64,000 nucleotides of DNA from Flavobacteriaceae bacterium (GTDB taxonomy: Bacteria; Bacteroidota; Bacteroidia; Flavobacteriales; Flavobacteriaceae), in the NCBI GenBank assembly GCA_009926065.1, contig RFPP01000006.1, positions 1 to 64,000 of the forward strand, given 5' to 3'. Under the pieces are notes generated by a model. It did no database searches. It saw only the letters and a list, made by a program, of their open reading frames with translations, and had not been told where the DNA came from. Position 1 is the stretch's first letter. Each line of letters begins with the position of its first letter. This document shows, piece after piece, positions 43,100 through 49,092 of this stretch. Position numbers and translations under genes: made by a program.

Positions 43100-45490
43100 A
43101 TGAAACGTACCATTAAAAAAGTTGCAGTTATAGGTTCCGGTATTATGGGATCGGGAATTGCATGTCATTTTGCCAATATCGGAGTTGAAGTTTTACTATT
43201 AGATATTATACCAAATCAATTGACAAGTGACGAAGAAAAAAAGGGATTAACATTAGAAAGTAAGATCGTTAGAAATAGATTGGTTAATGAGCATTTAGCC
43301 AATTCATTAAAATCGAAACCTTCCCCTATTTACAATCAAAAATTTGCTAGTAGAATTACCACAGGAAACACCACCGACGATTTGGTTAAAATTGCCAATG
43401 TAGATTGGATTATTGAAGTGGTTGTTGAGCGTTTGGATGTCAAGAAATTAGTATTTGAACAAATAGAAAAATACCGCAAACCAGGAACTTTGGTAACATC
43501 AAATACTTCAGGAATTCCGATTCACTTTATGAGTGAAGGAAGAAGTGAAGATTTTCAGAAGCACTTTTGTGGAACCCACTTTTTTAATCCAGCAAGATAT
43601 TTAAAATTATTTGAGATTATTCCAGGGCCGCAAACCTCCCCTGAAATAATTGATTTTCTTACAATATACGGAGAGAAATTTTTAGGAAAAACTTCGGTTG
43701 TTGCCAAAGATACTCCCGCATTTATAGGTAATCGAATTGGTATTTTTGGAATTCAGAGTTTATTTCACTTAGTCAAAGAATTAGGTTTAACTATTGAAGA
43801 AGTTGATAAATTAACAGGTCCAGTTATTGGAAGACCTAAATCGGCGACTTTTAGAACGGTTGATGTAGTTGGATTAGACACTTTAGTACATGTGGCCAAC
43901 GGAATTTATGAAAACTGTCCTAATGACGAAAAACACGATTTGTTTCAATTACCCAATTTTATAAAAAAAATGATGGAAAACAATTGGCTTGGAAGCAAAA
44001 CTGGTCAAGGTTTTTATAAAAAAGAAGGTCGAGATATTTTATCATTGAATTTAAATACATTAGAATATAGAGCCGCAAAAAAAGCATCATTTGCAACGCT
44101 CGAATTAACAAAAACGATAGCAAAACCTATTGATCGTTTCAAAATATTGGTAACCGGAAAAGACAAAGCTGGAGAATTTTATAGAAAGAGTTTTGCTTCT
44201 ATGTTTGCTTATGTTTCCAATAGAATTCCAGAAATAGCTGATGAATTGTACAAAATTGACGATGCGATGAAAGCTGGTTTTGGTTGGGAAAATGGTCCGT
44301 TCGAAATTTGGGATGCCATTGGTGTTGAAAAAGGAATCGAAATCATGAAAACGGAAGGCTTAGAACCTAATTCTTGGGTGAATGATATGTTGGCTTCTGG
44401 AAATTCGAGTTTTTATACCGTAAAAGAAGGTGCAACCTATTATTATTCGATTCCAAATAAAACACAAACGAAAGCTCTAGGTCAGGATGCCTTTATTATC
44501 TTAAACAATATTCGCGAAAGCAAAAAGGTATGGAGTAATAGCGGAGCAATTATTCAAGATTTAGGAGATGGAATTTTGAATTTAGAATTCCAATCGAAAA
44601 TGAACACCATTGGAGGCGACGTTTTACAGGCCATCAACAAAGCTATTGATTTATCAGAAAAAGAATATCAAGGATTGGTTATTGGAAACCAAGCAGCAAA
44701 TTTCAGTGTGGGTGCAAATATCGGAATGATATTTATGATGGCTGTAGAGCAAGAATATGACGAATTGAATATGGCTATTAAAATGTTCCAAGACACAATG
44801 ATGCGTGTTCGATATTCTGGAATTCCAGTAATTGTTGCTCCACACGGAATGACACTGGGAGGAGGTTGCGAAATGAGCATGCACGCTGATAAAGTAGTTG
44901 CTGCGGCAGAAACGTATATTGGATTAGTAGAATTTGGAGTTGGTGTAATTCCAGGTGGTGGAGGTTCGAAGGAAATGACCTTACGAGCTTCTGATTTATT
45001 TCGAAAAAATGACGTTGAATTGAATGTATTACAAGAATATTTCTTGACTGTTGCAATGGCAAAAGTTTCTACTTCAGCTTATGAAGCCTACGATTTGGGT
45101 ATTTTACAACATGGGAAAGACGTTGTAATAGTAAATAAAGACCGCCAAATTGCTGAAGCTAAAAAACATGCATTATTAATGGCAGAGGCAGGATACACTC
45201 AACCTATTCGCCGAAACGATGTGAAAGTTTTAGGAAAACAAGCGTTGGGAATGTTCTTAGTTGGAACTGATCAAATGGAAGCTGGAAAATACATTTCAGA
45301 ACATGACAAGAAAATCGCAAATAAACTGGCTTATGTTATGGCGGGAGGAGATTTATCAGAACCTACATTGGTATCAGAACAATATTTATTAGACATAGAA
45401 AGAGAAGCTTTTTTGAGTTTATGTACCGAAAGAAAAACCTTGGAAAGAATACAATTTATGTTAACTAAGGGGAAACCGCTTCGCAATTAA
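43100..45490 (+). CDS. 3-hydroxyacyl-CoA dehydrogenase / enoyl-CoA hydratase fusion
   Basis: VAVIGSGIMGSGIACHFANIGVEVLLLDI NAD-binding motif, HFFNPARYLKLFEIIPG, C-terminal crotonase APHGMTLGGGCEMSMHAD. Confidence 0.95.
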   Translation: MKRTIKKVAVIGSGIMGSGIACHFANIGVEVLLLDIIPNQLTSDEEKKGLTLESKIVRNRLVNEHLANSLKSKPSPIYNQKFASRITTGNTTDDLVKIANVDWIIEVVVERLDVKKLVFEQIEKYRKPGTLVTSNTSGIPIHFMSEGRSEDFQKHFCGTHFFNPARYLKLFEIIPGPQTSPEIIDFLTIYGEKFLGKTSVVAKDTPAFIGNRIGIFGIQSLFHLVKELGLTIEEVDKLTGPVIGRPKSATFRTVDVVGLDTLVHVANGIYENCPNDEKHDLFQLPNFIKKMMENNWLGSKTGQGFYKKEGRDILSLNLNTLEYRAAKKASFATLELTKTIAKPIDRFKILVTGKDKAGEFYRKSFASMFAYVSNRIPEIADELYKIDDAMKAGFGWENGPFEIWDAIGVEKGIEIMKTEGLEPNSWVNDMLASGNSSFYTVKEGATYYYSIPNKTQTKALGQDAFIILNNIRESKKVWSNSGAIIQDLGDGILNLEFQSKMNTIGGDVLQAINKAIDLSEKEYQGLVIGNQAANFSVGANIGMIFMMAVEQEYDELNMAIKMFQDTMMRVRYSGIPVIVAPHGMTLGGGCEMSMHADKVVAAAETYIGLVEFGVGVIPGGGGSKEMTLRASDLFRKNDVELNVLQEYFLTVAMAKVSTSAYEAYDLGILQHGKDVVIVNKDRQIAEAKKHALLMAEAGYTQPIRRNDVKVLGKQALGMFLVGTDQMEAGKYISEHDKKIANKLAYVMAGGDLSEPTLVSEQYLLDIEREAFLSLCTERKTLERIQFMLTKGKPLRN

Positions 45491-45517
45491 TTATAAATTA
45501 TGAATTATAAATAATAA

Positions 45518-45542
45518 AAGATAATAGACGGAAGATGATAGA
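45518..45542 (+). repeat. Repeat copy L1 of the AAGATAATAGACGGA... family
   Basis: AAGATAATAGACGGAAGATGATAGA; about 22/26 match to the reverse complement of 47262-47287. Confidence 0.75.
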
Positions 45543-45606
45543 AAAATTCGAAGTAAAATTTTATCAATCTATTATCTCATTGTCTATCAAAAAAAAAAAA
45601 GAAATT

Positions 45607-46788
45607 ATGAAAACAGCCTATATTGTAAAAGCTTACAGAACTGCCGTTGGTAAAGCACCAAAAGGCCTATTTAGATTCAAGCGACCTGATGAATTGGCGG
45701 CGGAAACAATCCAGTTTATGATGAATGAATTACCCGATTTCGACAAAAAACGCATCGATGACGTAATGGTTGGAAATGCCATGCCAGAAGCAGAACAAGG
45801 TTTGAATATGGGACGATTGATTTCATTAATGGGATTAAAAATCGAGGATGTTCCTGGAGTAACAGTTAATAGATATTGTGCTTCAGGATTAGAAACTATA
45901 GGAATGGCAACGGCTAAAATTCAATCAGGAATGGCCGATTGTATAATTGCTGGAGGTGCGGAAAGTATGAGTTTTATTCCTATGGGTGGTTATAAACCAA
46001 CCCCTGATTATGCAGCAGCAAAAGCCGGAAATGAAGATTACTATTGGGGAATGGGTTTAACTGCAGAAGCGGTTGCCCGACAATATAACATTTCAAGAAT
46101 AGACCAAGATGAATTTGCTTATAATTCACACATGAAAGCTTTGAAAGCACAATCGGAAGGAAAATTTGACAAACAGATTGTACCAATTACGATTGAGCAA
46201 ACCTTCATCAATGAAAATGGTAAAAAAGAAACCAAATCCTATTTAGTTAATAAAGATGAAGGTCCACGAGCAGGAACTTCCGTAGAAGCTTTGGCAGGAT
46301 TACGAGCAGTTTTTGCAGCTGACGGAAGTGTAACTGCTGGAAATTCTTCCCAAATGAGTGACGGAGCGGCATTTATATTAATAATGAGTGAAGAAATGGT
46401 TAAAGAACTCAACCTCACTCCTATTGCAAGATTAGTCAATTTTGCTTCCGCTGGTGTAGAACCAAGAATTATGGGAATTGGGCCAGTAAAAGCCATTCCA
46501 AAAGCATTAAAACAAGCAGGATTGCAATTAAAAGATATCGATTTAATCGAATTGAATGAAGCATTTGCCTCACAATCATTGGCTGTAATTCGTGAATTGG
46601 ATTTAAATCCAGAAATAGTAAATGTTAATGGAGGAGCAATTGCATTGGGGCATCCACTAGGTTGTACAGGAGCAAAATTATCAGTTCAATTGTTTGACGA
46701 AATGAAATTACGAGGGAGTAAATACGGGTTAGTGAGTATGTGTGTTGGAACTGGTCAGGGAAGTGCGGGGGTTTTTGAGTTGTTGTAG
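45607..46788 (+). CDS. acetyl-CoA C-acyltransferase (thiolase)
   Basis: VNRYCASGLETI, NVNGGAIALGHPLGCTGAK, CVGTGQGSAGVFE; start set to MKTAYIVKAYRT at 45607. Confidence 0.95.
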   Translation: MKTAYIVKAYRTAVGKAPKGLFRFKRPDELAAETIQFMMNELPDFDKKRIDDVMVGNAMPEAEQGLNMGRLISLMGLKIEDVPGVTVNRYCASGLETIGMATAKIQSGMADCIIAGGAESMSFIPMGGYKPTPDYAAAKAGNEDYYWGMGLTAEAVARQYNISRIDQDEFAYNSHMKALKAQSEGKFDKQIVPITIEQTFINENGKKETKSYLVNKDEGPRAGTSVEALAGLRAVFAADGSVTAGNSSQMSDGAAFILIMSEEMVKELNLTPIARLVNFASAGVEPRIMGIGPVKAIPKALKQAGLQLKDIDLIELNEAFASQSLAVIRELDLNPEIVNVNGGAIALGHPLGCTGAKLSVQLFDEMKLRGSKYGLVSMCVGTGQGSAGVFELL

Positions 46789-46795
46789 TAGATAA

Positions 46796-46821
46796 TAGAT
46801 AATAGACGGATGGATAATAGA
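46796..46821 (+). repeat. Repeat copy L2, left inverted repeat bracketing the four-helix-bundle gene
   Basis: TAGATAATAGACGGATGGATAATAGA, inside a GATAATAGA-rich tract (46791-46837); about 20/26 match to the reverse complement of 47262-47287. Confidence 0.7.
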
Positions 46822-46870
46822 CGATAGATAATAGATATTAATAAAAATCAAAGCGATAAAAAGATAAAAT

Positions 46871-47236
46871 ATGAGCGAATTTAAAAGACATAATTTTAAG
46901 AAACTTAAAATATGGCAAATGGGAATGGAACTAGCCAAACAAATCTTAGATATTACTGATACTTATCCTAGTTCTGAAAAATTTGATCTAAAAAATCAAA
47001 TGGATAGATGTTCTATTTCAATGCCTTCGAATATTGCAGAAGGTTCGAGTAGAACTGATAAATCCTTCAGTCATTTCATTGATATTTCGTTAGGATCTTC
47101 TTATGAATTACAATCACAACTAATATTAGTAAATCATAGAAAATATATCACCGACGATTTCTCAAGTTTAATTGAAATTAAAATAGAGGAGTTTCAAAAG
47201 GCAACGATGTCAATTCAAAACACATTAAATAAATAA
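46871..47236 (+). CDS. four-helix-bundle protein (S23/IVP-like family)
   Basis: FKKLKIWQMGMELAKQILDITDTYPSSEKFDLKNQMDRCSISMPSNIAEGSSR is the classic signature of this family. Confidence 0.93.
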   Translation: MSEFKRHNFKKLKIWQMGMELAKQILDITDTYPSSEKFDLKNQMDRCSISMPSNIAEGSSRTDKSFSHFIDISLGSSYELQSQLILVNHRKYITDDFSSLIEIKIEEFQKATMSIQNTLNK

Positions 47237-47261
47237 AATAATATTAAATCAAGATAAGGCG

Positions 47262-47287
47262 TCTAACATCTATTCGTCTATAATCTT
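47262..47287 (-). repeat. Repeat copy R, right inverted repeat bracketing the four-helix-bundle gene
   Basis: TCTAACATCTATTCGTCTATAATCTT; reverse complement AAGATTATAGACGAATAGATGTTAGA matches L1 and L2. Confidence 0.72.
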
Positions 47288-47301
47288 TAATCTGCAAAAT
47301 A

Positions 47302-49092
47302 ATGGATATTAAAACACGAGGAGGTCAATTCCTAGTAAAAGAGACAAAATGTGAAGATGTTTTCACGCCCGAAGACTTCAATGAAGAGCAACTGATGATG
47401 CGTGATTCAGTTAGAGAATTTGTAGACAAAGAGATTTGGCCTTACAAAGATAGATTTGAAAACAAAGATTTCGCCTTAACTGAGGAAACGATGAAAAAAG
47501 CGGGAGATCTTGGATTTCTTAGTGTAGCTGTACCTGAAGCTTATGGCGGAATGGGAATGGGATTTGTAAATACAGTATTGGTTTGCGATTATATTTCGGG
47601 AGCTACAGGTTCGTTTTCAACGGCATTTGGTGCGCACACCGGAATAGGAACCATGCCAATTACGCTTTATGGAACTGAGGAGCAAAAGCAAAAATATGTT
47701 CCAAAACTCGCATCAGGAGAATGGTTTGGTGCTTATTGTTTAACAGAACCTGGGGCTGGATCGGATGCAAATTCTGGGAAAACAAAAGCAGTTTTATCAG
47801 AAGATGGAACACATTACAAAATTACAGGACAAAAAATGTGGATTTCAAATGCTGGTTTTTGTTCTTTATTTATTGTTTTTGCTCGTATCGAAGATGACAA
47901 AAACATAACTGGTTTTATTGTTGAAAACGATCCTTGTAATGGAATTTCAATGGGAGAAGAAGAACATAAGTTAGGAATTAGAGCCTCTTCTACTCGACAA
48001 GTGTTCTTTAATGAAACTAAAGTTCCAATAGAAAATATGCTATCGGAAAGAGGAAATGGTTTTAAAATTGCCATGAATGCTTTGAATGTTGGAAGAATAA
48101 AATTAGCTGCAGCTTGCTTAGACGCTCAACGAAGAGTTACAACAGGAGCTATAAAATATGCAGTTGATAGATTCCAATTCAATACTTCAATCTCTCAGTT
48201 TGGGGCAGTGAGACAAAAAATTGCTGAAATGGCTACTTCATGTTATGCTGGTGAAAGCGCAACTTATAGAGCAGCAAAAGATATAGAAGATAGAATAACT
48301 GCTCGTGAAAAAGATGGTGCCACTCATCAGGAAGCAGAATTGAAAGGAGTTGAAGAATATGCAATTGAGTGTTCTATTTTGAAAGTTGCTGTTTCTGAAG
48401 ACGTTCAAAATTGTGCTGATGAAGGAATACAGATTTTTGGCGGAATGGGATTTTCAGAGGATACTCCTATGGAAAGTGCATGGAGAGACGCCAGAATTGC
48501 ACGTATTTATGAAGGTACCAACGAAATCAATAGAATGCTTTCAGTTGGAATGCTAATTAAAAAAGCAATGAAAGGCCACGTTGATTTATTAGGACCTGCT
48601 TCTCAAGTTCAGGAAGAATTAATGGGAATTCCATCATTTGAAACATCAGATTATTCTGAATTATTTGCTGAAGAAAAAGAGATGATTGGAAAAATAAAAA
48701 AGGCCTTTTTAATGGTTGCAGGTGGTGCAGTTCAAAAATACGGTCCGGATTTAGAAGGACACCAACAATTATTAATGGCTGCTGCCGACATGCTTATTGA
48801 AATTTACATGGCAGAAAGTACGATTCTTAGAACAGAGAAAATTGCTAAAAATAATGGAGAAGAAAAAGTTCAAGAACAAATTGCAATGGCAAAACTTTAC
48901 TTGTATAAAGCAGTAGATATCATTAATTTAAGAGGTAAAGAGAGTATAATTTCATTTGCAGAGGGTGACGAACAACGAATGATGTTAATGGGATTACGTA
49001 GATATACAAAATATACAAATATGCCAAATATAGTAGCTTTAAGAGAAATAATCACTTCAAAATTAGTTGACAAAAACGAATATTGTTTTTAA
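47302..49092 (+). CDS. acyl-CoA dehydrogenase family protein
   Basis: CLTEPGAGSDANSGKTKA, KMWISNAGF, IQIFGGMGFSEDTPMESAWRDARIARIYEGTNEIN. Confidence 0.95.
   Translation: MDIKTRGGQFLVKETKCEDVFTPEDFNEEQLMMRDSVREFVDKEIWPYKDRFENKDFALTEETMKKAGDLGFLSVAVPEAYGGMGMGFVNTVLVCDYISGATGSFSTAFGAHTGIGTMPITLYGTEEQKQKYVPKLASGEWFGAYCLTEPGAGSDANSGKTKAVLSEDGTHYKITGQKMWISNAGFCSLFIVFARIEDDKNITGFIVENDPCNGISMGEEEHKLGIRASSTRQVFFNETKVPIENMLSERGNGFKIAMNALNVGRIKLAAACLDAQRRVTTGAIKYAVDRFQFNTSISQFGAVRQKIAEMATSCYAGESATYRAAKDIEDRITAREKDGATHQEAELKGVEEYAIECSILKVAVSEDVQNCADEGIQIFGGMGFSEDTPMESAWRDARIARIYEGTNEINRMLSVGMLIKKAMKGHVDLLGPASQVQEELMGIPSFETSDYSELFAEEKEMIGKIKKAFLMVAGGAVQKYGPDLEGHQQLLMAAADMLIEIYMAESTILRTEKIAKNNGEEKVQEQIAMAKLYLYKAVDIINLRGKESIISFAEGDEQRMMLMGLRRYTKYTNMPNIVALREIITSKLVDKNEYCF

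Follow-up and report, generated by a model that had tools for sequence, protein, structure and literature searches.

The window analysed here, a stretch of 64,000 nucleotides at the start of contig RFPP01000006.1 from a Flavobacteriaceae bacterium, carries within a beta-oxidation operon a unit of about 505 bp (46789..47293, + strand), in which a gene of the S23/IVP four-helix-bundle family is bracketed by inverted arrays of heptameric repeats. The unit lies between an acetyl-CoA acyltransferase (thiolase) gene (45607..46788, +; PF00108/PF02803), whose stop codon is followed immediately, at 46789, by the first array, and an acyl-CoA dehydrogenase gene (47302..49092, +; PF02771/PF00441/PF21263). 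The 121-aa open reading frame (ORF) of the original prediction (46871..47236, +) exists, Pfam matches identify its two neighbours as had been proposed, and the protein scores 101.5 bits against PF05635 (cut-off 33.8) and 89.8 bits against TIGR02436 (cut-off 24). The 5' terminal array (46789..46837, +) consists of imperfect 7/8-nt tandem repeats (TAGATAA TAGACGG ATGGATAA TAGACGA TAGATAA), in which Tandem Repeats Finder (TRF) counts 6.9 copies of TAGATAA with period 7 (score 54); in its 14-nt-unit form the array scores 66, the highest of any tandem repeat in the window. The 3' terminal array (CGTCTAACATCTATTCGTCTATAATCTTTAATCT; 47260..47293, - strand) is an inverted copy of the first. The resulting arms (46790-46823 and 47260-47293) are 34 nt long with 27 of 34 positions matched (79%); within the 1.1 kb examined no inverted pair is longer. 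The inverted flank score of the element is 43, while 100 dinucleotide shuffles gave 35 or less. The 26-nt inverted flanks claimed at first are real, but they are only part of these arms, which are heptad arrays and not a fixed inverted repeat.

The same arrangement is found around S23 genes across many phyla. A cross-phylum set of 80 S23 loci from about 20 phyla was picked from species genomes by protein motif, blind to the flanks (77 were usable), and 141 neighbouring ORFs from the same loci served as controls; the genome scan for S23 used a 4-sequence alignment, a 15-sequence alignment being too diverse. The median inverted flank score of the 77 loci is 37, compared with 18 for direct pairs, cross-locus pairs and control ORFs alike (p=1e-23). 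The control ORFs have a 99th percentile of 28, and none of them exceeds the cross-locus 99th percentile, as opposed to 28 S23 loci. In a period scan of these flanks, lag 7 gives 16.6 of 24 matches against 10.5 in shuffled sequence and its multiple, lag 14, is also raised; the remaining lags are nearly level, lag 8 being slightly elevated. The possibility that the flanking repeats are scattered low-complexity tracts unlinked to four-helix-bundle genes therefore falls away, since there is a strong association between arrays and S23 genes, which extends to plasmid-borne S23 genes of cyanobacteria, Azospirillum and Gemmatirosa. S23 elements also occur within CRISPR operons, in the orders cas6/S23/cas4 and cas10/S23/cmr3 (three loci), which may explain why S23 genes are listed among CRISPR-associated genes, as in one figure that includes 23S rRNA IVP (PMC10910872).

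Within the genus of the window's organism, S23 genes are present in 146 of 150 genomes, with 1-17 genes apiece, and nearly all loci examined have inverted arrays at both ends, each with its own heptad or, at some loci, octad; own-arm inverted scores reach at least 34 in 70% of 77 genus loci. The window's genome has three S23 genes, all bracketed by inverted heptad arrays (TAGATAA, GTTGTTG and AGTTTAA). A comparison with the ends of other four-helix-bundle genes of the genome had been proposed: inverted arrays are found at both ends of the other two S23 genes, but the end sequence is not shared, because each S23 clade has its own heptad.

The operon slot itself is variable. The gap between the thiolase and acyl-CoA dehydrogenase genes is 430-584 bp where S23 is present and 21-30 bp, an empty slot, in seven of 30 genus genomes, and at two loci of relatives the element is decayed. 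The search for empty-site alleles proposed with the original prediction was thus successful, and a fixed operon gene, present at the same position in all relatives, is rejected by the empty slots, the slot being empty, filled or decayed according to species. Homologues of the window S23 in the same slot are 61-86% identical, and family members in the genus have a median dN/dS of 0.073, which reflects purifying selection. This makes the element here an old one, and recent movement of the window copy is unsupported: it is mostly vertically inherited, and 'mobile' describes the family over time.

Several other occupants were seen at this and related slots. In some relatives the thiolase/acyl-CoA dehydrogenase slot holds a member of one of two other gene-less hairpin families (GCCCCCTAACCCCC...GGGGGTTAGGGGGC and TTGTCATTTCGACGAAGGAG...; six loci in all), and in two it holds a second four-helix type with a GANxxEA motif in place of NIAEG; a gene similar to this second type lies between AGTGATT heptad arrays in Bernardetia. 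Elsewhere in this beta-oxidation operon, further intergenic slots contain S23 elements with heptads of the TACAATA, TAGAATA and AGTATTA types (four loci), which indicates that this operon has been hit repeatedly. A slot upstream of a hemB-like gene is occupied by a TTAGC-type S23 element in relatives; in the window's genome a gene-less GTTTAAA array stands there, so slots are reused by different element types. At seven loci the 3' heptad array continues into the next gene and encodes a signal-peptide-like N-terminus (for example MLNSLSSIRLSSSRLSSISLPSVSLSSICLLSICLF...), so that the array has become coding sequence.

The two arms of an element are related to each other in a way that is expected if their pairing matters. 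In the folded transcript of the window element the 5' and 3' arms pair in both minimum free energy and centroid folds (z=-4.0), as the predicted mRNA stem around the ORF would have it. Among 404 pairs in the genus, arms within one element are more alike than arms between orthologues in 75%, and unit variants follow one another in mirrored order in the two arms (p=0.012 cross-phylum; p=4.5e-5 in the genus). The S23 gene is also co-oriented with both neighbours at all 77 genus loci and at 51 of 67 cross-phylum loci, compared with a baseline of 26 of 56 gene triples in the window. Searches for further signals of transcription or origin were negative: Rfam RNA families gave no match at 45000-48000, the element has 8 promoter-like sites versus 5.0 (sd 2.1) in shuffles and no terminator, and a phage origin is rejected by 0 matches in 50,697 phage records.

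Structural comparison places the protein firmly among known S23 proteins and more remotely near a retroelement component. The AlphaFold2 (AF2) model of the window S23, made as a monomer (pLDDT 94.3), is closest to 2GSC (XCC0516; TM 0.88, root mean square deviation 1.1), a four-helix bundle whose solved structure has five chains arranged as a pentameric toroid. Remoter matches are to Avd of the ribonucleoproteins of diversity-generating retroelements (DGRs; 8UBE, TM 0.78; 4DWL, TM 0.76). Avd is likewise pentameric and part of a ribonucleoprotein. This related fold, together with sub-threshold bAvd matches and the sense-only insertion in the genus, would suit a retroelement in which S23 plays the part of Avd alongside a reverse transcriptase provided in trans and the unit moves through RNA. 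However, the DGR Avd models fall far below their cut-offs (bAvd 25.5 versus 40 bits; NF033474 20.8 versus 80 bits), and the reverse transcriptase domain RVT_1 is absent from the window's genome and present in only 69 of the 150 genus genomes, against the 146 with S23. Dependence on a DGR or other reverse transcriptase is rejected on these grounds, and we regard the retroelement explanation as a whole as quite improbable.

Array type follows protein clade. Among the 77 genus loci, pairs at non-homologous sites (sites without a common neighbour gene) share their array sequence in 91% of cases if the proteins are more than 70% identical; the share is 67% at 60-70% protein identity and 0-2% below 50%. 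The S23 clade of the window, in particular, retains TAGA-type heptads at several separate slots. Arrays of the same types also occur without a gene. A solo hairpin of the window's own heptad type lies just upstream of the thiolase gene (GATAATAGACGGAAGATGATAGA ... TCTATTATCTCATTGTCTATC; 45517..45589, +), with an array pattern match at 45517-45530 and an RNA hairpin of z=-2.9, and is abutted by a second heptad array, AATTATA x4.3 (45489..45518, +; TRF). Like this hairpin, gene-less arrays are often convergent pairs, as are three GTTTAAA pairs in the window's genome. A 13-nt pattern scan of that genome gave no excess over a reversed control, and longer patterns were used for this reason. The array pattern TAGATAATAGACG is found in 14 of 18 genomes with the window S23 clade and in 44 of the 232 others among 250 genus genomes (p=5e-7, kinship ignored), counts that include cis copies; at least three copies are found in 11 of 18 and 19 of 232, respectively (p=2e-7).

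A second group shows the same association. At four Xanthomonadaceae loci the unit GGGAATC flanks an S23 gene adjoining accC, and among 179 Xanthomonadaceae genomes at least 10 GGGAATC matches are found in 42 of 75 with S23 but 9 of 104 without (p=5e-12, kinship ignored), with medians of 26 and 0 matches. This unit is one of several heptameric simple sequence repeats (SSRs) already described: GGGAATC in Xanthomonas and GGGGA(T/C)T in Nostoc (PMC4692102), and TAACTGA in Beggiatoaceae (PMC4679880). In X. campestris 186 GGGAATC patterns were reported, 70 cases of them as convergent pairs, without a mechanism (PMC4692102). The SSRs resemble the arrays described here in their 7-nt unit, their intergenic position and, in Xanthomonas, their frequent convergent pairing; they differ in having been reported without a link to S23 and with an origin given as slippage or left unexplained. 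Our literature search, which covered few subscription papers, found no paper that makes a general link between S23 genes and heptameric repeats.

For these SSRs the literature invokes slippage (PMC4692102, PMC4679880), and it could be argued that the arrays likewise grow passively by polymerase slippage, with S23 genes as bystanders in repeat-rich spacers. Slippage, however, gives no inverted pairs with mirrored unit order, and a passive origin accounts neither for array types that stay with a protein clade from one unrelated site to another nor for the absence of such flanks from the 141 control ORFs. In its simple form slippage is largely refuted by the inverted, order-mirrored arms, and we consider it highly unlikely to explain the feature.

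The ends of such a unit can be read from 23S rRNA. In Azospirillum lipoferum 4B one 23S copy is filled and another is empty, with 484 bp before and 344 bp after the insertion identical between the two. The filled copy contains a 473-bp insert in place of a 19-nt hairpin, and the exact ends of the insert are heptad arrays. Sequence context suggests that the insertion point is helix 45 of 23S. This single clean allele pair has no target-site duplication; the sites in protein operons are too diverged to tell. These observations bear on another explanation, in which S23 is a host regulator that binds RNA or DNA, the arrays are its operator sites, and both spread by ordinary gene transfer and mutation. 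The strong purifying selection (dN/dS ~0.07), the solo arrays in spacers near the starts of other genes and the mostly vertical inheritance are all compatible with a regulator. It leaves unexplained, however, why, in a genome that also has an empty 23S copy, the insert of the filled copy should begin and end precisely with arrays, and why solo hairpins are convergent and empty slots clean. We consider regulation alone unlikely, although it deserves more weight than the other alternatives, and the regulatory and insertion-element explanations can both be partly true.

The explanation that we favour, and hold to be probable, is that the window feature is an S23/IVP insertion element, an old unit of the intervening sequence (IVS) type, movable over time, with an S23 protein that recognises the heptad arrays of its own element. 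The proposal that it is a non-rRNA relative of the S23-encoding insertion unit of 23S rRNA, carrying its own foldback ends, is supported by the empty slots, the inverted arrays and the paired-arm fold; in kind the element corresponds to the 23S rRNA IVS, but it is located in a protein operon in the sense direction. Each unit would consist of one S23 gene between two inverted terminal arrays of about 4-7 heptad units. An S23 oligomer, such as the toroid of 2GSC, would recognise the heptad units in its own arrays, with each subunit perhaps taking one; arrays have a median of 4.6 units, close to the toroid's five subunits, but this agreement in number is no more than suggestive. The two arrays may form a foldback in single-stranded DNA or RNA. 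At the RNA level such a stem would allow RNase III to cut the unit from the transcript, as for rRNA IVS, and insertion in an operon or in rRNA would thereby be tolerated. The unit and its gene-less array hairpins would spread rarely to new intergenic slots over evolutionary time.

Known systems resemble the element in some respects and differ from it in others. The 23S rRNA IVS of Leptospira and Coxiella also have an S23-family ORF between stem-forming terminal inverted sequences and are likewise patchy in their presence (PMC4990558), and in Coxiella the S23p ORF is reported to be adjoined by heptameric GACAGAT repeats (PMC4990558). The window element differs in lying in a protein operon instead of an rRNA gene, in that RNase III excision is only predicted for it, and in having its own heptad type with cognate solo arrays scattered in the genome. 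RAYT-REPIN systems (PMC3116915) share a vertically kept gene, short inverted repeats on its flanks with further copies around the genome in the form of hairpin pairs lacking the gene, and a repeat type coupled to the protein clade; S23 likewise is a gene flanked by repeats that are also dispersed as inverted pairs. RAYT, however, is a Y1 HUH tyrosine transposase, while S23 is a four-helix bundle without a known catalytic motif, and the S23 repeats are heptad arrays, not fixed palindromes.

Several observations weigh against this reading of the element. A Pfam scan of the S23 protein returns 23S_rRNA_IVP and the sub-threshold bAvd only, with no transposase, nuclease or other catalytic domain that could serve movement; the element is in this respect unlike insertion sequences (ISs) and miniature inverted-repeat transposable elements (MITEs), and the RVT_1 search of the window's genome offers no reverse transcriptase in their stead. 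Array binding by S23, removal of the unit from mRNA and the chemistry by which it moves are steps that we infer. The pairwise statistics on arrays and proteins lack phylogenetic independence; the genus copies are mostly vertically inherited and form only about 10 distinct site clusters, which means that movement is rare. In the cross-phylum set 21 of 77 loci fall short of p<=0.05, partly as a result of start-codon choice. Among the Xanthomonadaceae, 33 of the 75 S23-containing genomes have fewer than 10 GGGAATC matches, presumably having other heptads, and the nine S23-negative genomes with at least 10 matches also run counter to the association. Finally, for Coxiella, work on its IVS suggests that this organism does not produce S23p in vivo (PMC4990558).

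On a broader scale, we think it quite possible, though with less assurance than for the window element itself, that S23 proteins, each clade with a 7-nt code of its own, make up together with their cognate arrays a distinct class of mobile gene-repeat systems found throughout the bacteria. Such a class may be the source of many unexplained heptameric repeats, including GGGAATC of Xanthomonas and probably the short tandemly repeated repetitive (STRR) sequences, which are heptameric repeats of cyanobacteria, and the rRNA IVS would be those members that landed in rRNA. To our knowledge, no function has been assigned to S23p in the time since the 1990s, when rRNA intervening sequences were described; nor do we know of a mechanism for bacterial heptameric repeats, which have been noted repeatedly. 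The S23-heptad link gives each of them a partner that can be tested: for the repeats a 120-aa protein, and for the protein a 7-nt site that its own flanks predict. The arrangement points to a widespread, little-noticed insertion element as the likely source of puzzling heptameric repeats in bacteria. If true, this would bring together rRNA fragmentation elements, operon insertions (among them those in CRISPR operons) and dispersed repeats, and would constitute a REPIN-like system built on another protein.
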